From: Candidatus Anaeroferrophillus wilburensis
GTDB lineage: Bacteria > Desulfobacterota > Anaeroferrophillalia > Anaeroferrophillales > Anaeroferrophillaceae
Direction: 5' to 3'
Length of the DNA: 64,000 bases
NCBI GenBank assembly: GCA_016934315.1
Contig: JAFGSY010000006.1
Span: 1-64,000 of the forward strand
Each line of letters starts with the position of its first letter. The first letter of the stretch is position 1. Below the pieces are notes generated by a model. That model made no database searches. It worked only from the letters and a program-made list of their open reading frames with translations, and was not told where the DNA came from. A program made the translations under genes and the position numbers. This document shows, piece after piece, positions 1,587-49,592 of the stretch.

Positions 1587-3461
1587 CTAGCCTAAAAGTC
1601 CCCAGCCTAAGAGCAGCAGGCAGATTAAACCCGCAGCCAAACCGGCAAAGCCGAGGAGCTGACCAATGGCTTCCCGCAGCACACCGGGATATTTGGTGAC
1701 CAGCTGATCCAGCTTACCCTGGGCCTTGAGCCGTTCATACTGTTCCGGTCGTTCTTCCTCCATCTCATAGCCTCGCAGCACACCATTAAAAATCACCATA
1801 TCCATGGGGAATTTTTCCGGACGGATATGGGTGTTGAAAAAGTGCACCGTGAAGATGAATCCGGAAGCCAGCAATGCTTCGTCGGAATGGACAACGATGG
1901 CGACGTTGAACATCCAGCCGGGCAGGAAGGCGGAGAAGAATTCCGGTATCCACAGCATCAGGCCGGTAAAGCCGATGGCGAACATCCCCCAGAAGACGGC
2001 GATGAAGTCAAATTTTTCCCAGTAGGTCCAGCGGTCGAAACGTGGCAGCCCACCCATCCCGAAGAACCATTTGAACATGCCGGTGATGTCGTCAAGATCT
2101 TTTTTGCGCGGACAAAGGGAGTCAGGTCCAAACAGTTTTTGCAGGAAGGTTTCACCGGTCTGTTTGATGAACAGGTAGTAGATCACCCAAAGCAGCGTGG
2201 TGCCGAAGTAGGAGAAGGTCACCACCGCGGCCCAGCGGTGAATAAGGCCAGCCATCTGCGGGCCGCCCATCAGATCGGCAAGGCTCTGGGCCCAGGGGGC
2301 ATGGTTGAACTTCAAGGGCAGGCCGCTGAGTACCAGGGCAATGAAGCTGACCATCATGGCAAAATGGAGCAGGATTTCAAGGAAACTGAACCGTTTGTAG
2401 AATACCTTCGGGTTGTGGGCATGGGGAACAAAGATACCCTGCTTGCGCAGCTCGTTCTTTTCAATATAGCTGCGAATCAGCCACAGAACGGTATGGAACC
2501 AGAAGAAGGCAAAGGTGGAAACCAGCAGGCCGGTCATGGCGACAAAGGTCCAGTAAAGGAGCGGGTAGTTCTCTTTATCGTGGTAATCAGCGTGCGGCAT
2601 GTACTTGGCAAAATTGGCATTGGCTTTCGGGTGACAGGCGCCGCAGGTTTCAACCAGGCCCTCGGGCGAAACGGATGATTCCGGGTTATCAGTGGGCAGC
2701 TGTTTATGAGCCGTATGGCAGTCGGCACAGCCGGCAACATAGGCTGCTCCACCGAGATGCTCGACCTTGCCATGGTAATCATGTTCGTAGGTTTTGAAAG
2801 CCAGGGTATAGACATTATTGCGTTTCATCATTTCACTGTCGGCATGACACTTTTGACAGGATTTGGTATGGAATTCGCGGGCTTCCCGGGCGGTGTCCGA
2901 GTGGATGTCCGTGACATGCTGCTCCTTGATGTCATGGAGTCCATGGCAGTCGGAACAGGAAGGCGAATCCGGGTTGCCAGCCAGCAGCCCTTTACCATGA
3001 ACGCTTTCCAGGTAGTCGCCGCTATCATGACAGCCACTACACATCTGGATAACTTTGGTTTTATCTCCCCTGAATGACTGGGATTCATGGATGTTGGAGT
3101 GGCAGTCGGTGCAGGTGACATCATTATCCGCATGAACGGAAAGGGTGTGCGCCTTGGCTTCGGCCTTATGGCAGAAGCCGCAGTTAACCGGCTGCATGGG
3201 AACTTCGCAGTCGGCATGTTTTTCCAGGTCGTAGATGTCACGGTGACAGCTGGTACAGGCATTGGTCCCATGAGAAGAAGCAGCAAATGTCGAGTTGCTG
3301 ATCTCATCGTGGCATTCCAGGCATTGACCGACTGAAATACATTCCAGGCAGATCTCTTGGGCCGCCTCTTTTGCCCACGAGTGCATGGGGGAGCCGAAGG
3401 CACAGAGGAGAACCAGAACCAGTGCCAAGAACCCACAATAGTTGGTCGCAAATTTCTTCAT
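1587..3461 (-). CDS. cbcL: CbcL-like nine-haem cytochrome c / membrane cytochrome b fusion
   Basis: 624 aa. A signal peptide (about residues 1-30) is followed by nine CxxCH haem c motifs between residues 47 and 277. From about residue 300 there is a membrane domain with several helices and histidines typical of di-haem b-type (HydB/NarI-like) subunits. This nine-haem c plus b-type architecture is that of Geobacter CbcL, an inner-membrane quinol oxidase needed for respiration of low-potential extracellular acceptors. Start: ATG with GGAGCGGGG upstream. It is transcribed alone, downstream of the atp genes but separated from them by a terminator. The assignment is by architecture; I could not align it. 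The alternative is a Cbc-type quinone:cytochrome protein with another partner. Confidence 0.75.
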   Translation of the reverse strand: MKKFATNYCGFLALVLVLLCAFGSPMHSWAKEAAQEICLECISVGQCLECHDEISNSTFAASSHGTNACTSCHRDIYDLEKHADCEVPMQPVNCGFCHKAEAKAHTLSVHADNDVTCTDCHSNIHESQSFRGDKTKVIQMCSGCHDSGDYLESVHGKGLLAGNPDSPSCSDCHGLHDIKEQHVTDIHSDTAREAREFHTKSCQKCHADSEMMKRNNVYTLAFKTYEHDYHGKVEHLGGAAYVAGCADCHTAHKQLPTDNPESSVSPEGLVETCGACHPKANANFAKYMPHADYHDKENYPLLYWTFVAMTGLLVSTFAFFWFHTVLWLIRSYIEKNELRKQGIFVPHAHNPKVFYKRFSFLEILLHFAMMVSFIALVLSGLPLKFNHAPWAQSLADLMGGPQMAGLIHRWAAVVTFSYFGTTLLWVIYYLFIKQTGETFLQKLFGPDSLCPRKKDLDDITGMFKWFFGMGGLPRFDRWTYWEKFDFIAVFWGMFAIGFTGLMLWIPEFFSAFLPGWMFNVAIVVHSDEALLASGFIFTVHFFNTHIRPEKFPMDMVIFNGVLRGYEMEEERPEQYERLKAQGKLDQLVTKYPGVLREAIGQLLGFAGLAAGLICLLLLGWGLLG

Positions 3462-5605: not shown

Positions 5606-6901
5606 TCATGAGGCCGACAACTCGGTAAGTGTTGCATCCAGGGCTGTCAGCGTCTGTTCCAGATCGTCATTGGTATGGGCGGCTGAAAGGAAACCGGCCT
5701 CAAACTGGGAAGGTGCCAGGTAGATGCCTCGCTCCAGCATGCCGGCAAAATAGCGGGCAAAGAGAGCGGTATCCGACTCTTGGGCCTGCTGGTAATTATA
5801 GACTTCAGTGTCCGTGAAATAGGTGCAGAACATGGAGCCGACCCGGGTGCAGTAATGGGGAACCTGGTGGCTTTTTAACAGCTTAGCTGTTTCCCGGGCT
5901 AAAAAGGCGGCCTTTTCTTCCAGTGCCGGATAGGGGTTTTCCTCTTTGAGAACCTGCAGCGTTGCCCGTCCGGCTGCCATGGCCAGAGGGTTGCCTGAAA
6001 GCGTTCCAGCCTGGTAGACGCTGCCCAGCGGGGCCAGTTGAGACATGATCTCCCGGCGGCCGCCAAAAGCACCCACCGGCAGGCCGCCGCCAATGATCTT
6101 GCCAAGGCAGGTCAGGTCAGGATTGATATTGTAAAGCGTCTGGGCACCGCCGTAGGCAACCCGGAAGCCGGTCATCACTTCATCAAAAATCAACACGATT
6201 CCCTGCTTGGTGCATCGTTCCCGTAATCCTTCGAGGAAGCCAGGAACGGGGGGGATGGTACCCATGTTGCCGGCTATCGGTTCAACAATAATGGCGGCGA
6301 TATCACTGCCAAACTGGTCGATGAGGAGGTCAACGGAAGCCAGGTCGTTGTAGGTTGCCGAAAGGGTCAGGCTGGTGAATTCTGCCGGCACTCCGGAACT
6401 GTCCGGAACACCAAGGGTAGTCGCCCCCGAACCGGCTTTGACCAGCAGGGCATCAACGTGGCCGTGGTAGCAGCCGGCAAACTTGATAACCTTCTTGCGG
6501 CCGGTTGCCCCACGGGCCAGGCGGATGGCACTCATGGTGGCTTCAGTGCCTGAATTTACCATGCGGACCATTCCCATTGACGGCAGAGCCTCGAGCAGTA
6601 GTTCGGCCATCTCAATTTCCAGGGTTGTCGGGGCACCGAAACTGGACCCGCGGGAAGCCTGTTCTTTGATGGCATGGGTGACTGCCGGATGGTTGTGGCC
6701 GATAATCAAAGGGCCCCACGAGCCGACATAATCGATATACTGGTTGCCATCAGCATCAAAAATATGCCCGCCACGGCCGCGGACAATAAACCTGGGTGGC
6801 AGGCCGACAGCGCGAAATGCCCGTACGGGACTGTTGACTCCTCCGGGAATTACCTTTTGAGCCCGGGCAAAAAGTTTTTCCGACATGGTTGATTTCATCA
6901 T
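5606..6901 (-). CDS. hemL: Glutamate-1-semialdehyde 2,1-aminomutase
   Basis: 431 aa, the family's normal length. It isomerises glutamate-1-semialdehyde to 5-aminolevulinate, the haem/corrin precursor, in the cytoplasm using pyridoxal phosphate. The PLP lysine is Lys268 in the segment [17 protein letters not shown], and the class III aminotransferase motifs ([10 protein letters not shown] at the N-terminus, [21 protein letters not shown]) are all present. It lies upstream of the F0 genes on the same strand with a gap of about 150 bp. A haem precursor gene among haem-rich cytochrome genes is fitting, though hemL is usually housekeeping. Start ATG 6901, or the second ATG a few codons in. Confidence 0.96.
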
Positions 6902-7177
6902 GAGAGTTCTCCTAGCCTGGTGGGCAAATAGTCCATTGTAACAACGATGGGCTTACCTTATCTGCCGGCCGAAGTCAAGGGGTGATAGCCACTGATATTC
7001 ACTTGCGCCATAAATCCTTCCTGTGCTAGTATCCCCAAAGGTTTTGGTGGGGAATGCACGCTATAATTTCCCGGCGTTGCCATGCTTTCAGTACCCACCA
7101 AAAAAGGGTTGTCAAACGGTTCTTAAAGGGTGGTTGGCGGCGCTGCCGGCCACTGACATAATATATGGAAAGGGTAG

Positions 7178-8611
7178 ATGGTGAGAAATTTACAGGTACT
7201 TGGTGTCATGCTCCTGCTGCTGGTTTTTCTCGTGGGGCCTGCGGCAGCCAGCAGCGCGGGGAAATCGCTTCATATTTTCTATTCGGGCGACGAGCGCGGT
7301 GCCGTCACCCCGTGCGGTTGACAGAAAAATCCGCGTGGCGGTCTGGCCAAGCGAGCAACATACCTAGATGAAGTGAGACAGGAAGCGGGTCCCCTGCTGG
7401 TGGTCAATGCCGGCAACCTGCTGTTCCGGCGGGAAGAGGTGAAACCTGAAAAAATGGTGGAAGCGCAGCTGACTGCCGACCTGATAGTGGCCTCGTACAA
7501 TACCATGGGGTGTGATGCCTTTAATGTTGGCGCCTATGATCTCTCCCTGGGGATTGATTATCTGATGCAAAAAAAGGCCAAGGCCCAATTTCCCTTCCTG
7601 TCGGCAAACCTTTGTGATCGGCACGGCAAGCTGCTGTTTCAGCCTTCGTTGATGAAAACGGTGCAGGGAGTCAAGGTGGCCATCTTTGGCTTGCTGTCCG
7701 ATGATGTGAAGCTTGATAAAGTTGCCGGCGGCAACAAAATTATGGTCAAAGATCCCTATGCTGTGGCAACCGAGCTCGTCCCTGCATTGAAAAAGGCCGG
7801 CGCGGATTATGTAATTCTGTTGACCGATATGGTGGGTCGTGATTGCCGGCGGCTGGCCCAGCAGGATCTGCCCATCAACCTCATTGTCGGCAGCAGCAGG
7901 AAGAATCAAATTTCCCTGCCAATTAACATCAATCAGACCTATATTACTCATCTGGACCGGGGAGGAAAGAGTGTCGGCTTGTTGGAAGTCAAGTTCCTTG
8001 ATGCGCAGGGGCTGATGGCGTTGCCGGTGGCTGAGCGGATGAAAGGCAGTGAAGTTGGTCGCTGCTTCTACCTCAATAAGTTTTTCCAGTTGCGGCTTTC
8101 AATTCCCGATCACCCTGTTATTGCTCCGAAAGTCGTAGCTCTGGCTGAAAAGATCAAACGTCTGCAACAGGTGAAGGCAACCCAGTCGATGACCATTCCC
8201 GGCAAGAAGTCCATGGGGGTTGATGGCGGCAACCAGTATGTTGGGGTCGAGGTCTGTGCAAAATGCCATCAGGATCGCTATGCATTGTGGCAGGCAAGTG
8301 AACATTCTCGGGCATACCAAGCCCTGGTCAAGAAAAATCAGCAATTTGATGCTGACTGTATTGCCTGTCATTCTCTGGCTTATGAACGGGAGGGCGGTTT
8401 TACGGATATGAAGCATATTGGTTTTTATACCAATGTTCAGTGTGAGTCATGCCACGGTCCGGGGCATCTGCATGTATCATCCGATGGCGACCCGAAAAAA
8501 ATCGTCAAGGAGAGAAACGAGGCAATTTGCCTCCAATGCCATATCTCGGAAAAAAGCCCCGATTTTGATTTTGAAACCTATCAGATAAAGGTGTGCGGTG
8601 GGGCGAAGTAA
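7178..8611 (+). CDS. Selenoprotein: UshA-like metallophosphoesterase-fold domain fused to tetrahaem cytochrome c554-like domain
   Basis: 477 aa if the in-frame TGA at 7319-7321 is read as selenocysteine (Sec48). A signal peptide (residues 1-28) leads into LHIFYSGDERG and then TPCG-U-QKNPRGGLAKR. A UshA/5'-nucleotidase-like domain runs to about residue 340, then a C-terminal domain with four CxxCH motifs (CAKCH, CIACH, CESCH, CLQCH; about residues 360-455) like cytochrome c554. The metallophosphatase signature TNDxHG is degraded (SGDERG; a later AGD reads AGN), so a redox role is more likely than phosphoester hydrolysis. The same frame and codon pattern continue across the TGA, and a SECIS-like hairpin follows. 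Start: ATG 7178 or the adjacent GTG 7181 (better spaced from GGAAAGGG). A TATAAT lies at 7062-7067. A paralogue is at 36278-37609. Confidence 0.85.
7332..7353 (+). promoter_or_regulatory. Bacterial SECIS-like hairpin of the first UshA-like selenoprotein
   Basis: CGC (7332-7334) pairs with GCG (7351-7353). After one G.A mismatch, TGGC (7336-7339) pairs with GCCA (7346-7349), leaving the apical loop GGUCUG (7340-7345). The loop begins 18 nt after the UGA, within the range known for bacterial SECIS, and contains GGUCU as in the E. coli fdhF element bound by SelB. Confidence 0.75.
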
Positions 8612-9150: not shown

Positions 9151-11373
9151 CTACTTATACTCTCCTTCGCTGAGCGTCTTAATGGTTGAATAGTGCAGCA
9201 GTTTTCCTTTAGCCTTCTCCAGCAGACTGCGGACTTTGCCGGCCAGATCCTTGGAGAACTCAAGGTTGTGAATCGGGTTGCCTTCCGCCAACTGCTTCAG
9301 GTTCTTCTCGGCGTTATTGAGCAGGTCCTGAGCGTCGTAGGTGTACTGGCCGTTTCTGATGGCGTTGAGGACCATCCGTTGGAGATTCTGCAGGTCCTGG
9401 GCAAGTTTTTCTATGTCCATGGCTTCCACCTGGGCCTGCCAGTCATCAACCATTGGTCCGTAACTGTGGTCATGACATTCGATGCAGGTGGCCTTGATGC
9501 CTTCAAGCGAGCTTTCCTCGCCGGCGGCAATCTGGACATGGCATTCCTGGCAGGTTACCCCTTCGGCCATGGAATTGGCTGCACCGCGAACGTCACAGCT
9601 GATCTCATCGCAGGCATTCTGGCCCTTGTAGAGGTTGAAAGCTGCTACGTGGCAATCTTCACACTGGACGGAGCCCATGCCGGAGCCGTGGTGGCAGCTG
9701 CTGCAGTTCTGCAAGAACGTCTTTCCGTGCTGTTCCCGGGCGCTGTGACATTCTTCACAACTGAGCCCTTCATCAATAACATGGGTATCGTGGGGGAACT
9801 GGACGTTGCCGAACGGTACCGGTTTAGTCTCAATACACTCGACACAGCTGTGGCAGAGGTCGGTGCAGCCGGTTGGTGAGAGCACCTCCTTGGCAACATA
9901 TTTCGGTATCACCAGGGCAAGCGCCTTCTCCACGTTTTCCCGGCAGCTGGCAAGAATTTTCAAGGCGTAGTCGATGTTGTGCAGACCATGACCATTTTTG
10001 GTGAACTGCAGGTTATTGTGGGCCTGTTCCAACAGCAGGGAGGCGTCACCATAGCGGTCTGCTTTCTTGTAAGCAGCAATCTTGTTGCGGGCTTTCAGCA
10101 GCGTCTCTTCTGTGCTTTCCAGTTCCTTGTTCAGCAGTTTCTTCCAATGTTTGGCCATGTCGTCATAGCCGGGGCCGTGGCAGTCTGAACAGGATGTAAT
10201 CAGTTCATCGTAGCCCTGCCGTTTTACGCCCTTAACCTGGCCGCTAGTTGTCTCGGTGAGGGCAACATGGCAGCTGGCACAATCCAGGTGAGCCAGATAC
10301 ATGGCGCTTGGCATATCGGTGATTCCTTCGGCCCCCTTACCCATGAACATCTGCCGTTTTACACTGTGCTCGCCGAAGGTATGGCACTTGATGCAGTTGC
10401 TGTCATAGTGATAGCCGCTGAGGACCGTTTTTTCCACCTGTTTTTTGCTTGGCACCGGGCTGTCCGAGGGCCGGGGAATGAAGTGATTGATGTCCGCATG
10501 GCAACGGAAACATTCCACCTTATGAAGGTTTACATGATTCAGGTGGATGTGTTCGCTGGTATGCTGACTTTCAAGAATTTCCGGTTCGGCATGGCACTGG
10601 ACACAGATGTTGTCCTTAGTGTGTCCTTCTCCGAAAACCACGTCAAAATGGCACTGCTGGCAGGTAACCCCCCGATCGACATAATCCTTGTGGATGAAAG
10701 GCAGGTTTTCATTGGCATCAATAAAGATCTTGGCTTTGGTCTGCTGGTGGCACAGGGTGCAGTCGGCCATTTCAGGATGCTGGTCTTTCTTGTAGAAATG
10801 GCAGGTGAAGCAGGTGGTTTCCGTTACCGTCAGATGTGCCCCCTGGACGATCTGCGAGTGGCAGCTGGTGCATTTCAGCTTTTTCCCCCGGCGGAGTTCG
10901 CTCAGATGGGTGTCGTGACTGAAGTTTACCCCTTTGAAAACCACTTCACTTTTACTCAGGTCAGTCTTTGAATGGCAGCCTTCCCGCAGGCAGCTGGCAT
11001 CGCTGACCTGGGTATGGGGACGGGGCGGAGCAGTGCCGGTGATTTTCAAAACCACATGCGTCTGGGCTTTCCATTTGCCTTTCAGTTCCCCCATCAGGCC
11101 CGGTTCAAAGTGGCATTCAAGACAGCTCACTTCCCGGTGGGAGGACTGTTTCCAGGACTCAATGTAGGTGCCCATATTGTGGCACATGGCGCAAAATTGA
11201 TAATTCGCCGTCAGGTGCAGCAGGGTTGCCATCAGGGCAATCAGGCCGATAAACGAAACAACAAGGAAAATAATAATCCCTTTCTTGTGCTGCCTGGTTC
11301 CCCGGATTGCTTCGCCAATGAAATCCTTAAGGAAGGCGGTTAGCAACTCCCACATGCGTTTGAGATGGGTCAT
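9151..11373 (-). CDS. NapC/NirT-family membrane-anchored cytochrome c with about 18 haems
   Basis: 740 aa. A charged N-terminus and a single membrane helix (about 32-52) lead into a NapC-like start (CAMCH at 61-65, then CLECH). Sixteen CxxCH motifs are visible, plus CLREGCH (Cx4CH) and CTDLCH (Cx3CH), giving about 18 haem sites. A further Cx4C (CDEISCDV) has lost the histidine. Two stretches rich in charged helix-forming residues (about 430-490 and 650-730) separate or follow the haem clusters. NapC-family proteins take electrons from quinol at the periplasmic face. This one is much larger than NapC (4 haems) or ImcH (7), so it may combine quinol oxidation with a periplasmic electron wire. 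Transcribed alone; partner unknown. Confidence 0.8.
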   Translation of the reverse strand: MTHLKRMWELLTAFLKDFIGEAIRGTRQHKKGIIIFLVVSFIGLIALMATLLHLTANYQFCAMCHNMGTYIESWKQSSHREVSCLECHFEPGLMGELKGKWKAQTHVVLKITGTAPPRPHTQVSDASCLREGCHSKTDLSKSEVVFKGVNFSHDTHLSELRRGKKLKCTSCHSQIVQGAHLTVTETTCFTCHFYKKDQHPEMADCTLCHQQTKAKIFIDANENLPFIHKDYVDRGVTCQQCHFDVVFGEGHTKDNICVQCHAEPEILESQHTSEHIHLNHVNLHKVECFRCHADINHFIPRPSDSPVPSKKQVEKTVLSGYHYDSNCIKCHTFGEHSVKRQMFMGKGAEGITDMPSAMYLAHLDCASCHVALTETTSGQVKGVKRQGYDELITSCSDCHGPGYDDMAKHWKKLLNKELESTEETLLKARNKIAAYKKADRYGDASLLLEQAHNNLQFTKNGHGLHNIDYALKILASCRENVEKALALVIPKYVAKEVLSPTGCTDLCHSCVECIETKPVPFGNVQFPHDTHVIDEGLSCEECHSAREQHGKTFLQNCSSCHHGSGMGSVQCEDCHVAAFNLYKGQNACDEISCDVRGAANSMAEGVTCQECHVQIAAGEESSLEGIKATCIECHDHSYGPMVDDWQAQVEAMDIEKLAQDLQNLQRMVLNAIRNGQYTYDAQDLLNNAEKNLKQLAEGNPIHNLEFSKDLAGKVRSLLEKAKGKLLHYSTIKTLSEGEYK

Positions 11374-14948: not shown

Positions 14949-16910
14949 ATGGCAGAGATACTTTTCAGCTCCTGGGGTGGCGATGTAGTTGACAATCGCG
15001 GCAAGGAGCCTCAGGAATATGAAACGGTCAAGAATGTTTCATTGCCGGAATATTTTCAGCAGGATGAAGAGATCAATGCCTTGATGGGCTGGTATGGCAT
15101 TGTCCTGCGGTCTTCCGAGGTCAACATCGTCGATCTCTGCCGCTCCTATATGGAGGCGGTTCAGGAAAAATCCTGCGGCAAGTGTTTTTTGTGCCGGATC
15201 GGTACCAAGGTGATCGCCGATACCCTGGGTAGGCTGTGCAACGGCAAGGGCCGTCAGGCTGACCTGGAGATCATGGCCCGGTTGGCGGAATCGATCAGTG
15301 AGTCGTCAAAATGCAATATCGGCCAGTCCGGTCCCGTTCCTTTGCGCCATGCGCTGGAATATTTTGCCGATGAATTTGCCCAGGCCGCCCAGGGTAAAAG
15401 TGTGAGCCCGGGGGTCTATCGTTCGAAATTAACGGCGCCGTGCATGGATGCCTGTCCTATTCATCTGGATATCCCCACCTACGTCGAATGCATCAGGGAA
15501 GGAAAGTTCCAGGAGTCGCTGGAGGTGATTCGTGAGCGGCTGCCGCTTCCCGGCGTGGTTGGCCGGGTGTGCGTTCGACCCTGTGAGGATCACTGTCGGC
15601 GCGCCAATCTGGATGAACCTGTCTCCATTAAGTTTCTCAAACGTTTTGTTGCTGACCATGAGCTGGGAAAGGGTAAGGAGCCTGGCTATCTGGTGGAACC
15701 CGCAGCCAAAACCGGAACGGTGGCCATTGTCGGCGCCGGCCCGGCGGGCGTTACCTGTGCCTATCATCTGGCCCGCAAAGGGCACCAGGTGACCATCTAT
15801 GAAAAACTGGGTGAGCCCGGCGGCATGTCGGCCGTAGGAATTCCGGATTATCGGCTGCCGCGTCATATTCTTCGCGGTGAGGTGGAACAGGTCCAGAAGA
15901 TGGGGGTGACCATCAACTACAATACCGAAGTCGGCAAGGATGTGAAGCTTTCGCAGCTGGAAGCCGACTACGATGTGGTGTTTATCGGTCACGGGGCCCA
16001 TCTGAGTGCCTCCATGCGGGTGGATGGTGAAGATGCCGGCTATAAAGGCTTCATCACCGGTGTCCAATACCTGCTGGATATTAACAGTGGTATTGATCCT
16101 TATCCAGAAGGCAACAAAGTGGTGGTGGTTGGCGGCGGCAACGTGGCCATCGACTGCGTCCGCTGCTCCTTCAGGATGAATAAAAAGGATGTCAATCTGG
16201 TCTATCGGCGCACCGAGAAGGAGATGCCTGCCGATGACGTGGAAATCCATGATGCCCACGAGGAGGAAGTTACCTTCCATTACTTGACGCATCCGGTGAA
16301 GGTGCTGGCCGAAAACGGCAAGGTGGTGGGCCTTGAGTGCATCAAGATGCAGCTGGGTGAGCCGGATGAAAGCGGCCGGCAGCGGCCCGAACCGGTTGAA
16401 GGGTCTGAGTTTATTCTCGATTGCGACATTGTGGTGCCGGCCATCGGCCAGACCATCGACCTGTCCATGCTGGAAGGGGTTGACAAGGTAAAGACCACTC
16501 GCTGGCATACCCTGGTGGTCAACGAGGATACCAAGCAGACCGACAATCCGAAAATCTTTTCCGCCGGTGACTGTGAAACTGGTCCGGGAGCCCTGATTAC
16601 CGCCTGCGCCGGCGGCCGTACGGCAGCCATCAACATTGATAAGTATATTAATGGTGAGCCGCTGGTAACCACGGAAGATGATTACTTCGACAAACTCTTT
16701 GATGCCGTCAAGGTTTATGACAAAGGGGAAGATGTGGGGTTTCTTGGCGGTCGGCAGCGTTACCAGCTCGGGATGCTGCCTCCTGAGACCCGCAAATGGA
16801 CCTTTGACGAGGTGGAACAGGGCTTTTCTCCCCAGGAGGCCATGGCCGAGGCAGACCGCTGTCTTCGCTGCTATCGGGTAGCCACTATTGCGACGGCGAA
16901 GAAAGCGTAG
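14949..16910 (+). CDS. NuoF C-terminal Fe-S domain fused to GltD-like NAD(P)H oxidoreductase
   Basis: 653 aa. Residues 60-145 match the C-terminal 4Fe-4S domain of NuoF: Cys76, Cys79, Cys82 and Cys122 (CxxCxxC...C, cluster N3). The FMN/NADH-binding domain of NuoF is absent. From about 160 the protein becomes a glutamate-synthase small-subunit-like (GltD/NfnB) flavoprotein: N-terminal cysteines 165, 169, 208, 212 and 216 for Fe-S, the FAD motif GAGPAG at 262-267, and the second nucleotide motif GGGNVAID near 394 followed by Arg-rich residues ending YRR, which in relatives binds NADPH. A C-terminal CLRC is near 635. It occupies the nuoE-nuoF position, suggesting it replaces the NADH dehydrogenase module. 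No glutamate synthase large subunit is nearby. GGAG is 7 nt before the ATG. Confidence 0.88.
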   Translation: MAEILFSSWGGDVVDNRGKEPQEYETVKNVSLPEYFQQDEEINALMGWYGIVLRSSEVNIVDLCRSYMEAVQEKSCGKCFLCRIGTKVIADTLGRLCNGKGRQADLEIMARLAESISESSKCNIGQSGPVPLRHALEYFADEFAQAAQGKSVSPGVYRSKLTAPCMDACPIHLDIPTYVECIREGKFQESLEVIRERLPLPGVVGRVCVRPCEDHCRRANLDEPVSIKFLKRFVADHELGKGKEPGYLVEPAAKTGTVAIVGAGPAGVTCAYHLARKGHQVTIYEKLGEPGGMSAVGIPDYRLPRHILRGEVEQVQKMGVTINYNTEVGKDVKLSQLEADYDVVFIGHGAHLSASMRVDGEDAGYKGFITGVQYLLDINSGIDPYPEGNKVVVVGGGNVAIDCVRCSFRMNKKDVNLVYRRTEKEMPADDVEIHDAHEEEVTFHYLTHPVKVLAENGKVVGLECIKMQLGEPDESGRQRPEPVEGSEFILDCDIVVPAIGQTIDLSMLEGVDKVKTTRWHTLVVNEDTKQTDNPKIFSAGDCETGPGALITACAGGRTAAINIDKYINGEPLVTTEDDYFDKLFDAVKVYDKGEDVGFLGGRQRYQLGMLPPETRKWTFDEVEQGFSPQEAMAEADRCLRCYRVATIATAKKA

Positions 16911-16970: not shown

Positions 16971-19649
16971 ATGAGCATGGTCACGTTAACGATTGACGGC
17001 AAGGAAGTAAAGGTCCCGAAAGGGACGACGATTCTTGCAGCAGCAAGGACCGCCGGCATTCGCATTCCGACGCTTTGCTACCATGGACGGCTGGAACCCA
17101 TCGGGTCGTGCCGGATGTGTGTGGTGGAGATTGACGGTTATGCCCATCCGATGGCGGCCTGTACCACTCCGGTGGGGGAGGGTGTCGCGGTAACCACCAA
17201 CTCTGATCGGTTGCACCGGATCCGTCAGGACTCCCTGAAGCTGATACTGGTGAATCATCCTCTTGATTGTCCCATTTGTGACAAGGGTGGCGAGTGCCTG
17301 CTGCAGGACCTGGTCTATGAGTATGGTATTGATCAGGTTGAATATCAGGCTCCCAAGCCGGTTCGTGATGCGGTTTATGCAACGCCGTTGATCCGTTACT
17401 GGCCTGACCGCTGTATTATGTGCTTGCGCTGTGTCACGGCTTGCCGGGAAATTAAGGGTATTGGTGCCATCGAGATCAAGGGTGAGGGGTATGGCACCCA
17501 GGTGGCGGTGATTGATGCTGATAAATGTCAGTCCTGTGGTGAGTGTCTGAGCGTCTGTCCTACCGGGGCGTTGACCGAGAACCTCAGCCGTTATAAAGGA
17601 CGGACCTGGCTTACCCAGCGGGTTCCCACCACCTGTACTTACTGCGGTTGCGGCTGCCAGTTGGAACTGAATGTGCAGAACAACCGGATCATCGGGGTGA
17701 CCACCCAGGAGGGCAAAGGTGTTAACCTCGGCAGCCTTTGTGTCAAGGGGCGCTTCGGTTACGAGTTTGTTGGCAGTGAGGAACGGCTGACAACGCCGCT
17801 GATTAAAAAGGATGGTGAGTTTCACCAGGCCAGCTGGGAGGATGCCCTGACCCTGGTGGCCGAGAAGTTCAAAGCCATCAGGGAAGAAGCCGGTCCGGAT
17901 GCCATCGGTGGTCTCTCCTCGGCCCGCTGTACCAACGAGGAAAACTACCTTTTCCAGAAATTCATGCGCGCGGTCATCGGCACCAACAGTGTCGACCACT
18001 GCGCCCGACTCTGACACAGCTCCACGGTGGCCGGACTGGCCGCCACGTTTGGCAGCGGAGCAATGACCAACCCGATCAAGGATGTCCTCAAAGCCGAGAC
18101 CATCCTGGTGACCGGAACCAATACCACTGAAAATCATCCCATATTTGCCAATTACATCAAGGAAGCCGTCCTAAAGCGGGGGGCGAAGCTGTTGGTGATT
18201 GACCCGCGGCGCATCGGGCTGGTGGACTTTGCCGACCTCTGGCTGCAGCCCAAACCCGGTACCGATGTGGCCTGGATCAATGGCATGATGCACATCATTG
18301 TTAAAGAGAATCTGCAGGCCCAGCAGCATATCCAGGAATGTACCACCGGTTATGAGGCTTTTGTCAAGGGTCTGGAAAAGTATACGCCCGAGTATGTTGC
18401 CGGGATTACCGGGATTGCTGTTGATGATCTCTATGCCGCGGCCCGTATGTACGGTCAGGCAAAACCGGCTTCGATTCTCTATGCCATGGGCATTACCCAG
18501 CACACCAGTGGCACCGACAACGTCAAATGCCTGGGGAATCTGGCTATGCTCTGTGGCAACGTCGGGGTGGTCGGCGGCGGTGTTAACCCGCTCCGGGGCC
18601 AGAATAACGTTCAGGGAGCCTGTGACATGGGGGCGCTGCCCAATGTCTTTACCGGCTATCAGAAGGTGGCAGACGACGAGGTCCGGCAGAAATTTGCCAA
18701 AGTCTGGGGGCTGGAGGAGCTTTCCGCAGTTCCCGGTCTGACGGTCACCAAGATGTTTCCAGCCGCCGAGGAGGGGGTCCTCAAAGGTCTGTATATCATG
18801 GGTGAAAATCCCCTGGTCAGTGATCCTGATCTCCATCATATCGAGGAGGCGGTAAAAAAACTTGATTTTCTCGTGGTCCAGGATATCTTCCTGACCGAAA
18901 CAGCCCAGCTGGCAGACGTGGTTTTGCCGGGGGTTTCCTTTGCCGAGAAAGATGGCACCTTCAGTAATTCCGAACGTAAGGTGCAACGGGTCAGGAAAGC
19001 GATTGAGCCGGTGGGCGAGGCTCGTGAGGACAGTTGGATTCTCTGTCAGTTGGCCACCAAAATGGGTTATTCCATGGAATACGCCGATGCCCGGCAGATC
19101 ATGGAGGAGATTCGCAGCGTAACTCCGAGCTATGGCGGCATCAGCTATGAAAGGCTGGAGAAGAAAGCCCTGGCTTGGCCCTGCCCGGCTGAAGATCATC
19201 CCGGGACTCCGGTTCTGCATGTGGATAAATATGCCTGTGGTCTGGGAGTCTTTTTTGCCATCGATTATCGGCCACCGGCGGAAAACCCCGATGCTGAATA
19301 TCCCTTTATTCTCAGTACCGGCCGGGTGCTGCAGCATTTCCATACCGGCACCATGACCCGCAAGGGCAAGGGTCTGAGTCAGCTCTATCCCGAGTTGCTG
19401 GCCGAGGTCAACCCCGATGATGCCGAAAAGCTGGGGGTTGAGGATGGCGATTTCATCACTATTGCTTCGCGGCGCGGGACCATCAAGGTGAAAAGCTGGT
19501 TGACGGATCGTGTGGCTGCCGGGGTGGTGTTTGTGCCGTTCCATTTCAGTGAATCGGCGGTCAACCAGTTAACCAACGCGGCTCTATGTCCCGACGCCGG
19601 GATTCCCGAATACAAAGTTTGCGCCGTCAAGGTGGAAAAGGCATCGTAA
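16971..19649 (+). CDS. fdhA: Selenocysteine formate dehydrogenase alpha chain with NuoG-type N-terminus (nuoG position)
   Basis: 892 aa with the TGA at 18012-18014 read as Sec348. N-terminal [2Fe-2S] ligands are Cys36, 47, 50 and 64; then His96/Cys100/103/109 (N5-type); two [4Fe-4S] ferredoxin motifs (Cys148-158, Cys186-196); the molybdopterin domain begins with CTYCGCGC (222-229) and Cys257. The active-site segment HCARL-U-HSSTVAGLA corresponds to the Sec140 region of E. coli FdhF, so formate oxidation is strongly implied; an ordinary NuoG lacks this. The protein therefore combines the NuoG role with a catalytic Mo/W site. ATG 16977 is an alternative start with better spacing from AGGA. 60 bp after the NuoF-GltD gene, 12 bp before nuoH. 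Confidence 0.93.
18026..18044 (+). promoter_or_regulatory. SECIS hairpin of the formate dehydrogenase gene
   Basis: A 7-bp stem (18026-18032 with 18038-18044, including one G-U) closes the loop GGACU (18033-18037). The loop starts 18 nt after the UGA, the same distance as in both UshA-like genes, with G in the first loop position as SECIS elements require. Confidence 0.75.
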
Positions 19650-36277: not shown

Positions 36278-37609
36278 TCAATGGGCGATCAGTTTCACAT
36301 CATCGATAAAGGAAAAATCGGGATCGGTCTGGGAGGTGTGGCAGACAACGCAGGTATCCTCGTCGATGGGTGTCCCGTAGGACAGGTCCGGCTTGGTGAC
36401 GTGCAGATGGCCCGAACCGTGGCACTGTTCACACTGGATATTGAACAGGTGCGGGGTTTTCTTCGGGGTGAGAAAGCCGATGCCGCCCTGGGGGTTGTTT
36501 TTGCCGGTGACATGGCAGGGGAGACAGTCGGGGCAGTAGTCCTTGCATTTTTTCTCCAGGCTGGCATATGCTTTCGCGTGGCGGCTCAGCTGCCAGGAAC
36601 CGACAATGGCCTGATGGCAGGGTGCGCAGGCCTGGACCCCCATATAGGTGGAGTCCTGCTGATCCGGTTGGGTTTCCTCCGCTTTTTGTTCCAGTTCAAT
36701 ATAGTGGCGGCGCAGCCACTCTTCATAGTCGCTCACTTGCCGGTCAACCGCCGGATCCGGGACAATATCTTTTTTACTGACCGGGAAGATGCCATGGGCG
36801 GCCGGCTGTCGGCTCGTCATATCCCAGTCCAGGTAGGAGATGGTTTTGCCCTGGTTGTTGTTTTTCACCAGATAGGTCTCGCCGACCTTTTCCGGTTCGG
36901 TGATCACCCCCCGCTGAGTTGCCAGGATGGCCAGATCGAAGCCGGGAATCTCGGCGAGCAGTTCGCGGGCTTTTCGATCGGAAAAATGGAGGACAATGAT
37001 GGCCAGATCATGGGGTTCGGTGGTGAGGATCTTTTGCAGCACCGGCAGCGGATTGAGAACCGTCAGCCCATGGATGGCCTTCTGCTCAAGTCGTTGATCG
37101 ATCGCTGATGCCACCAGAATCTTCTTCCCCCCTTTTTCCAAGACGACATGAGAAACAAGTCCGGGGAACAGCCCGGCAGGCAGATTGCTGCAGACCAGCG
37201 GCATCGCCTTGGCGGCGGAGGTTATGCCGGTAATGATCTCCCGGCCATAGATCAGCTCCTGGCCACCGGGAGTGAGGAGATCGGCGCCCATCTGTTCATA
37301 GACGCCGGTGATCAGAGAGGTCTGCCGGCGGTCAACCTGGAAATCCTTCTTGATGGTCGGTTTGGTCAACTCACCGGTATTGATCAGCAGCAACCGGTCG
37401 GCAGGGGTGGTTTGTCGCAGGGTGTTGATGATCGTTTGCTGCCGGGCAAGACCGCCGGCCTGATTTCGGTGTCAGCCGCAGGGTTTGACATAGCCATTGA
37501 GAGAACCAATGTAGATAATGCGCAGCGGTGCCGGTGGCTGCGCTGCTGCCGGTAGCAGAACGCCGCAGCTGAGAATCAGGAGTGTCGCTAGGATAAGTAT
37601 AACGCGCAT
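36278..37609 (-). CDS. Selenoprotein: second UshA-like/tetrahaem cytochrome c554-like protein
   Basis: 443 aa with the TGA at 37474-37472 read as Sec46. Signal peptide (residues 1-22), then LRIIYIGSLNGYV and KPCG-U-HRNQAGGLARQ, the same motif as Sec48 of the protein at 7178-8611. The UshA-like domain continues to about residue 330 and four CxxCH motifs follow (CAPCH, CLPCH, CEQCH, CVVCH). The metallophosphatase signature is lost further here (no Asp-x-His). A start inside the later ATGs would delete both signal peptide and motif, leaving exported haem motifs without a signal, so read-through is the better model. Divergent from uvrA; upstream of mnmG. Confidence 0.85.
37441..37459 (-). promoter_or_regulatory. 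SECIS-like hairpin of the second UshA-like selenoprotein
   Basis: On the minus strand GCC-GGC (37459-37454) pairs with GCC-(bulged C)-GGC (37447-37441), closing loop GGUCUU (37453-37448). The loop starts 18 nt after the UGA and shares GGUCU with the first paralogue and E. coli fdhF. Confidence 0.75.
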
Positions 37610-48794: not shown

Positions 48795-49592
48795 ATGAAA
48801 TCGTCCTTTGGCGCCTTGCTGCTGCCCCGGCGCTGTCTGCTATGCCGTTGTTACACTACTCACCCTTTTTTTGCTGAGCGTCATTCTTCTGCCTATGCTC
48901 CCTTTGTTTGCCAGGCGTGCGCCACAGGTTTTGAGCCGTTTGTCAGGCCGGTGTGTTCCTTGTGTGGGCACCCCTTCCCCGGCGGGCATGCTGCTGACCA
49001 TCACTGTCTGCCGTTGGCCGGTGACCGGGGCTTGAAAGGAGGCCTGATCCGCTCAGGATACCGCTATGCCGGCGGCATGGTCGAGATCATTCACCAGTGG
49101 AAGTACGGCAAGCGTTCACTGGTTGTGCCGCTGGTGGAAAAGCTGGTTGATCTGGCGCTTGAACGATGGGCTGTTGATTTTCAGGATGTGGCGGTGGTCG
49201 GGGCCATTCCGCTGGCCCCCCCTTCGTTCCGTTCTCGGGGATTCAATCAGGCACTGATCATTGCCTCCCGCTGTGCTTCCCGGCTTGACAAACCCCTGCA
49301 AAGGCGCCTATTGGTAAAAGCCAGAGAAACAAAGAAACAGGCCTCCCTGGGCAGGGAACAGCGGCGGCAGAATCTGGCCGGGGTGTTTCACGTTGGCAGC
49401 CCTGATGGGGTGGCGGCGAAAACAGTGATGCTCTGCGATGATGTCATGACCTCCGGTGCAACCCTGTCGGCTGCTTCCGAGGCCCTGCTGCTGGCTGGCG
49501 CTGCGGCGGTAAAGTGTTTTACTCTCTGCCGGGTAGAGCGTGGCCGCGATCAGTCTAAAATAGCAGACCACGGAGTTCCGCAACCGCGTTAA
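48795..49592 (+). CDS. comF: ComF-family phosphoribosyltransferase-like protein
   Basis: 265 aa. An N-terminal zinc region with cysteine pairs (CLLC at 14-17, CQAC at 39-42, CSLC at 54-57) leads into a phosphoribosyltransferase domain with the PRPP motif VMLCDDVMTSGATLS. In competent bacteria ComF helps DNA uptake; in others its substrate is unknown and it may act in nucleotide salvage or natural competence. 43 bp after gpmI. Confidence 0.88.
   Translation: MKSSFGALLLPRRCLLCRCYTTHPFFAERHSSAYAPFVCQACATGFEPFVRPVCSLCGHPFPGGHAADHHCLPLAGDRGLKGGLIRSGYRYAGGMVEIIHQWKYGKRSLVVPLVEKLVDLALERWAVDFQDVAVVGAIPLAPPSFRSRGFNQALIIASRCASRLDKPLQRRLLVKARETKKQASLGREQRRQNLAGVFHVGSPDGVAAKTVMLCDDVMTSGATLSAASEALLLAGAAAVKCFTLCRVERGRDQSKIADHGVPQPR

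Follow-up and report, generated by a model that had tools for sequence, protein, structure and literature searches.

A predicted exported UshA-like selenoprotein with a C-terminal tetrahaem domain, and its possible redox role

Gene layout and the in-frame UGA

The window analysed here, a stretch of 64,000 nucleotides, holds at 7178..8611 (+) a gene that forms one frame of 477 amino acids when TGA is read as selenocysteine (Sec), with a single U at codon 48. A signal peptide can be made out by eye at 7178..7252 (+)—MVRNL, a hydrophobic core and the end PAAAS, with an approximate cleavage site, and an N-terminal helix at residues 3-18 of the structural model—and is followed by a region with the fold of the UshA/5′-nucleotidase N-domain (7265..8092, +), which contains a P-C-G-U redox motif (7310..7321, +; Sec codon UGA 7319-7321) in the context TPCGUQKNPRGGLAKR. 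The C-terminal part is a cytochrome c554-like tetrahaem domain (8228..8578, +), whose four CXXCH motifs lie at 8255-8269, 8357-8371, 8441-8455 and 8528-8542 (+; residues 360, 394, 422 and 451). It is the only domain that Pfam recognizes in the protein (PF13435, 52.7 bits against a gathering threshold of 20.8, with all four CXXCH), and it matches PDB entry 1bvb. The NCBIfam equivalog model NF041198 (UshA_like_PCGU) scores 390.5 bits (cut-off 275) in two stretches spanning the model's UshA and cytochrome parts, the second being 8036-8575 (model positions about 339-519, the cytochrome region). Residues C46, G47, U/C48, GGL54-56, H376 and H432 and the four CXXCH motifs are invariant in 41 aligned homologues, which bears out the four haems proposed in the sequence-only reading, an earlier model-made note on this DNA. 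From its sequence, the product is predicted to be an exported-type selenoprotein with a UshA-like fold and four c-type haem motifs. Ordinary annotation misses this, as had been anticipated: translation with table 11 gives a sole ORF of 412 amino acids from GTG 7373, without the signal peptide or the CGU motif. Such gene calling truncates members of the family, and here removes both the signal peptide and the presumed active site.

The genome (2.70 Mb, 98% complete) encodes a full set of Sec machinery, with matches to selA (602 bits), selB (398 bits), selD (362 bits) and tRNA-Sec (70.5 bits; gathering threshold 47), and its selD itself holds an internal UGA. A control for Sec decoding is the window's third Sec gene: the formate dehydrogenase alpha gene (16971-19649, +) carries a UGA at 18012-18014 and matches TIGR01591 at 870 bits when read through. 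That UGA falls in the usual HCARLUHS site and splits the gene, so that callers would give two ORFs; the gene sits downstream of a complex-I-like gene set. Among the distinct family sequences collected, 104 have Sec and 13 have Cys near the codon-48 position, and in 40 related genomes nearly all matches to the UshA part span one TGA. The sequence-only reading had named a lack of Cys at the aligned position as grounds for giving up the Sec assignment. Cys forms were found, the nearest of them with the same architecture and haems and all above the NF041198 cut-off (LCGC in L137/L138 and L148, PCGC in L140); L137 scores 392 bits. One further sequence, L136, located at a contig start, scores 445 bits and has four haems, but carries PSGR, with neither Cys nor Sec.

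Downstream of the UGA lies a putative SECIS-type hairpin (7332..7353, +), with the stem CGC-UGGC / GCCA-GCG and the loop GGUCUG (7340-7345). Bacterial SECIS models call for a loop that opens with two Gs and lies 16-37 nt after the UGA (PMC13188914); here the loop begins 18 nt after it, and GGUCU starts at an offset of 21 nt from the first UGA base, the same as in MG1655 fdhF as read from the genome record. Taken as a single sequence, the hairpin is no more stable than shuffled versions (z -0.28), and an Rfam scan of the SECIS region returned no useful family. Because the hairpin is unremarkable alone, the SECIS case rests on comparison; and because its loop also overlaps the conserved GGLA residues, synonymous codon choice is the appropriate test. 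GGTCT occupies the Gly-Leu codons in 88 of the 104 homologues with Sec and in 3 of the 13 with Cys (Fisher p 1e-5, kinship uncorrected), with GGC-GGT-CTN-GCC almost uniform among Sec members and mixed codons among Cys members. Third bases in the stem also covary: at pair 17-30, which joins the third base before GG to the first base of the next Arg/Lys codon and alternates between T-A and G-C, 69 of 97 sequences form standard pairs versus 43.8 expected, reaching the permutation floor (kinship uncorrected), and pairs 14-33 and 15-32 likewise lie beyond 5000 permutations (kinship uncorrected). Judged by these alignments, synonymous positions are constrained in Sec members and not in Cys members, and the fdhF-like loop proposed in the sequence-only reading is upheld by its offset and by this contrast.

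The Sec machinery, the roughly 100 homologues that keep the UGA, the exchange with Cys (CGC), the GGUCU offset and the synonymous constraint together lead us to assign UGA 7319-7321 as a selenocysteine codon, in agreement with the sequence-only reading. Decoding as Trp or another residue was set aside, given that UGA terminates many ORFs here and that Sec machinery is present. That the UGA is instead a true stop, or that the gene has decayed and is translated from GTG 7373, would fit both the exact ORF called under table 11 and the indifferent stability of the single hairpin, but we regard it as very improbable: haem attachment requires the signal peptide, which translation from 7373 would leave out, and this alternative is also opposed by the conservation of an in-frame UGA in about 100 diverse homologues flanked by PCG and GGLA, by the synonymous constraint and by the complete Sec machinery.

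Fold, family and paralogues

An AlphaFold2 model built with the 41 aligned homologues has a mean pLDDT of 86 and a pTM of 0.82; confidence is low in the linker at 338-351. Its best Foldseek matches in the PDB are UshA and other 5′-nucleotidases, UshA 1oie ranking first (E 5e-22). The protein has the N-domain fold of the UshA metallophosphatases and lacks their ligand set (D, H, D, N, H, H, H): the E. coli UshA ligands D41, H43, D84, N116, H117, H217 and H252 correspond here to D, R, N, A, Y, D and S, so that one of seven is kept. This is not peculiar to the window protein, since each of 119 family members has at most four of the seven ligands; N116 survives in a single member and H117 in three. 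All seven are present in two genuine nucleotidase homologues from the same collection. The alignment indicates that the dinuclear metal site has been lost across the whole family, which extends the earlier remark that the metal residues are degraded. The sole invariant reactive residues of the UshA-like domain are C46 and U48 of the C-G-U/C motif; in sequence and alignment the C-G-U loop comes immediately after the strand-loop with D-x-H that belonged to the lost metal site, which would place the redox motif on the rim of what was the active site. With the metal site gone family-wide, "nucleotidase" was dropped as a lead and attention turned to the C-G-U motif.

The sequence-only reading had implied that the gene was new and misnamed after 5′-nucleotidase; neither part is borne out. 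It is now filed as a "UshA-like (seleno)protein" under NF041198, which covers the UshA and cytochrome parts, has the same C-G-U motif and shows no essential difference from the window protein. A 2008 report on ocean metagenomes described the family as COG0737 UshA-like proteins with a CxU motif, comprising 76 Sec and 92 Cys sequences (Zhang & Gladyshev, PMC2398784), and it appears in later lists (PMC9312934, PMC13188914). In these 18 years it has stayed on such lists with no function assigned, and the literature searched yielded no published one. A related family, NF049981 (UshA-like (seleno)protein family 2), has its motif given as CxxU (PMC13188914) and matches the window protein weakly, at 40 bits (cut-off 140). 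The calcineurin-like phosphoesterases UshA, CpdB and NadN and the thiosulfohydrolase SoxB are alike in fold (for UshA 1oie, a whole-chain TM of about 0.5) and give sequence matches, but the window protein differs from them in lacking the two-metal ligands and in having CGU and haems. It scores 39.8 bits against the SoxB thiosulfohydrolase model TIGR04486, below the cut-off of 550; for the Cys member L137, SoxB is the top known relative outside the family (8e-25). The haem part resembles cytochrome c554, but is a fused C-terminal domain where c554 is a free protein. The multihaem c-type cytochrome (seleno)protein ExtKL (NF040886) shares the theme of selenoprotein and multiple haems, but matches weakly and in the haem part only (20 bits against a cut-off of 250), with no match to the UshA domain.

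Two paralogues were found in the same genome. Paralogue B, a UshA-like selenoprotein gene with four haems (36278..37609, −; Sec codon 37472-37474), scores 210 bits and sits between uvrA-like and mnmG/gidA-like genes. Paralogue C, also with CGU and four haems, lies on contig C21 near 66.6-68.0 kb (locus L007, about 6567-8012, −), scores 261 bits and has GGGCU, not GGUCU, in its putative SECIS loop. Both fall below the NF041198 cut-off of 275, so that two of the three types would escape both the curated model and ordinary gene calling. In a tree of 60 rows they belong to a supported clade of 26 (100/99), while the window protein falls in a different clade; the 26, all with Sec and all with four haems, run through the order Tharpellales, so that the triplication is old. 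Contigs of Candidatus Tharpella aukensis (L062) and Ca. Tharpella sp. (L067) show full DNA identity to loci of two genomes that share their order with the window's genome, which places the latter in a Tharpellales family other than that of Tharpella.

Other variants were seen among the collected loci. A haemless PCAU UshA-like selenoprotein lies directly upstream of a tetrahaem PCGU form in a tandem that continues into a 16-haem cytochrome on the same strand (L032, L076, L077). At L142 and L145, one haemless UshA-like variant has the motif CxxU (PCPVU) and another, encoded nearby, has CxxC (PCGTC, PCSTC), by their motifs a natural Sec/Cys pair. On contig C4 of the window's genome (L008, near 49140-49499 in the contig), a stand-alone frame of 142 amino acids matches only the cytochrome part of NF041198 and is possibly a free tetrahaem electron carrier.

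The window gene is, on sequence grounds, a well-supported addition to a known, uncharacterized selenoprotein family. To that family we add the family-wide loss of the metal site, a codon test comparing Sec with Cys members, a paralogue clade that scores under the cut-off, and two partner contexts, described below; none of these was found in the papers searched, and they may be reported elsewhere.

Gene neighbourhoods

Convergent with the selenoprotein gene, 540 bp away and sharing no operon with it, is a gene for a 740-amino-acid cytochrome with a NapC/NrfH-like N-terminus and 16 CXXCH motifs (9151..11373, −). At about 20 loci a homologue of this 16-haem cytochrome is encoded close to the selenoprotein gene, in three arrangements: convergent in Tharpellales, divergent in Deferrisomatales and relatives (L065, L069-L071, L073, L074, L091), and on the same strand downstream of the selenoprotein gene at the three tandem loci. 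Because proximity has been kept through rearrangement, the comparison argues for a functional link between the two proteins. A further recurrent neighbour in relatives is represented here by a gene for a 624-amino-acid multihaem cytochrome c with a cytochrome b-type membrane part and 9 CXXCH motifs (1587..3461, −).

The second context is found in Marinimicrobia, where the family member is haemless and lies directly downstream of rhodanese and MauE, either separate or fused. This arrangement recurs in 20 loci, nearly all titled Marinimicrobia, and at several of them the upstream gene overlaps the selenoprotein start by 4 nt (L078, L080, L082-L084, L088, L100), several being rhodanese-MauE fusions of 360 amino acids. 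MauE was sought in the window's genome and not found, and rhodanese matches there are weak and on other contigs. In another Marinimicrobia group (L113, L123, L126, L129-L131), the selenoprotein gene lies directly after or near an FMN_dh-type gene of the type-2 isopentenyl-diphosphate isomerase kind, as judged from Pfam only. Outside Marinimicrobia and the Tharpellales/Deferrisomatales-type lineages, the gene stands among unrelated housekeeping genes. No redox or sulfur family recurs among 74 neighbours from diverse phyla; a family-wide sulfur operon was accordingly rejected, and a sulfur reading can be pushed only so far. Elsewhere in the window, a gene for a 653-amino-acid protein (14949-16910, +), by eye a NuoE/F-like start joined to a GltD-like FAD oxidoreductase, lies between nuoA-D-like genes, which it follows closely, and the formate dehydrogenase gene.

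Possible functions

The reading we favour, tentatively, is that the protein is a periplasmic selenol/thiol oxidoreductase whose haems would connect it to a quinol route of the NapC/NrfH type for the exchange of electrons. C46 and U48 would alternate between the selenol/thiol state and a selenenylsulfide, and the protein's own four haems, together with the neighbour-encoded 16-haem cytochrome, would carry electrons between these two residues and the membrane quinol pool. In the haemless Marinimicrobia form, the co-translated rhodanese and MauE, a DsbD-like redox membrane protein, may take the place of the haems. The substrate could be a periplasmic disulfide or sulfane-sulfur species, with reduction as the normal direction, a guess hinted at by the SoxB resemblance of L137 and by the rhodanese partner. 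Several observations speak against the mechanism: the solitary gene in most lineages, the missing MauE, the 16-haem gene outside any operon, and the PSGR form in L136. The periplasmic redox enzyme of the sequence-only reading stands as far as export, haems and the missing metallophosphatase site go; "reductase" further supposes a direction and a substrate.

The same parts may serve other ends. A general periplasmic repair or detoxification enzyme of haem-rich anaerobes, acting on peroxide, selenenyl or disulfide damage outside energy metabolism, would account for a mostly solitary gene among housekeeping genes and for three paralogues in one genome, and Sec is typical of such enzymes (PMC2398784); we consider this somewhat unlikely, as the fused tetrahaem domain and the large quinol-linked cytochromes nearby suggest respiratory electron flow. 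Electrons could also run in the opposite direction, from a periplasmic enzyme that oxidizes a thiol or a reduced compound of sulfur or selenium, with SoxB-like binding and CGU chemistry, into the multihaem network and on to an external or unknown acceptor. SoxB is the best non-family match of L137, and the haem domain resembles cytochrome c554, which carries electrons away from an oxidase; the apparent lack of a recognized terminal reductase in Tharpellota (PMC9213671) would also suit such a role. But the NrfH/NapC-type N-terminus of the neighbour, usually quinol-oxidizing, points to electrons moving outward to a reductase, and no Sox partners were seen beside the gene, so that we judge an oxidase unlikely. 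A dead phosphoesterase kept for binding, for example as a nucleotide or metal scavenger whose C-G-U holds a soft metal and does no redox work, is consistent with the lost metal ligands and with the reasonable chemistry of soft-metal binding by Cys and Sec; four invariant fused haems are nevertheless ill-suited to a mere binder, and the haemless forms are paired with a redox MauE/rhodanese protein, which makes this improbable.

Returning to the selenol/thiol oxidoreductase, the rhodanese/MauE and 16-haem NrfH-like partners offer concrete hypotheses for its electron route. In Tharpellota, an octahaem HAO-type protein has been proposed where a recognized terminal reductase is wanting (PMC9213671), and PF13447 matches are present in the window's genome. 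A more speculative extension, to which we give little weight, is that the UshA-like CGU/tetrahaem proteins and their 16-haem NrfH-like feeder could form an undescribed terminal or near-terminal respiratory reductase of Tharpellota acting on sulfane sulfur or disulfide, the three paralogues perhaps serving different acceptors. As no terminal reductase is recognized in this group, the triplicated Sec/tetrahaem protein merits assaying there as a candidate.
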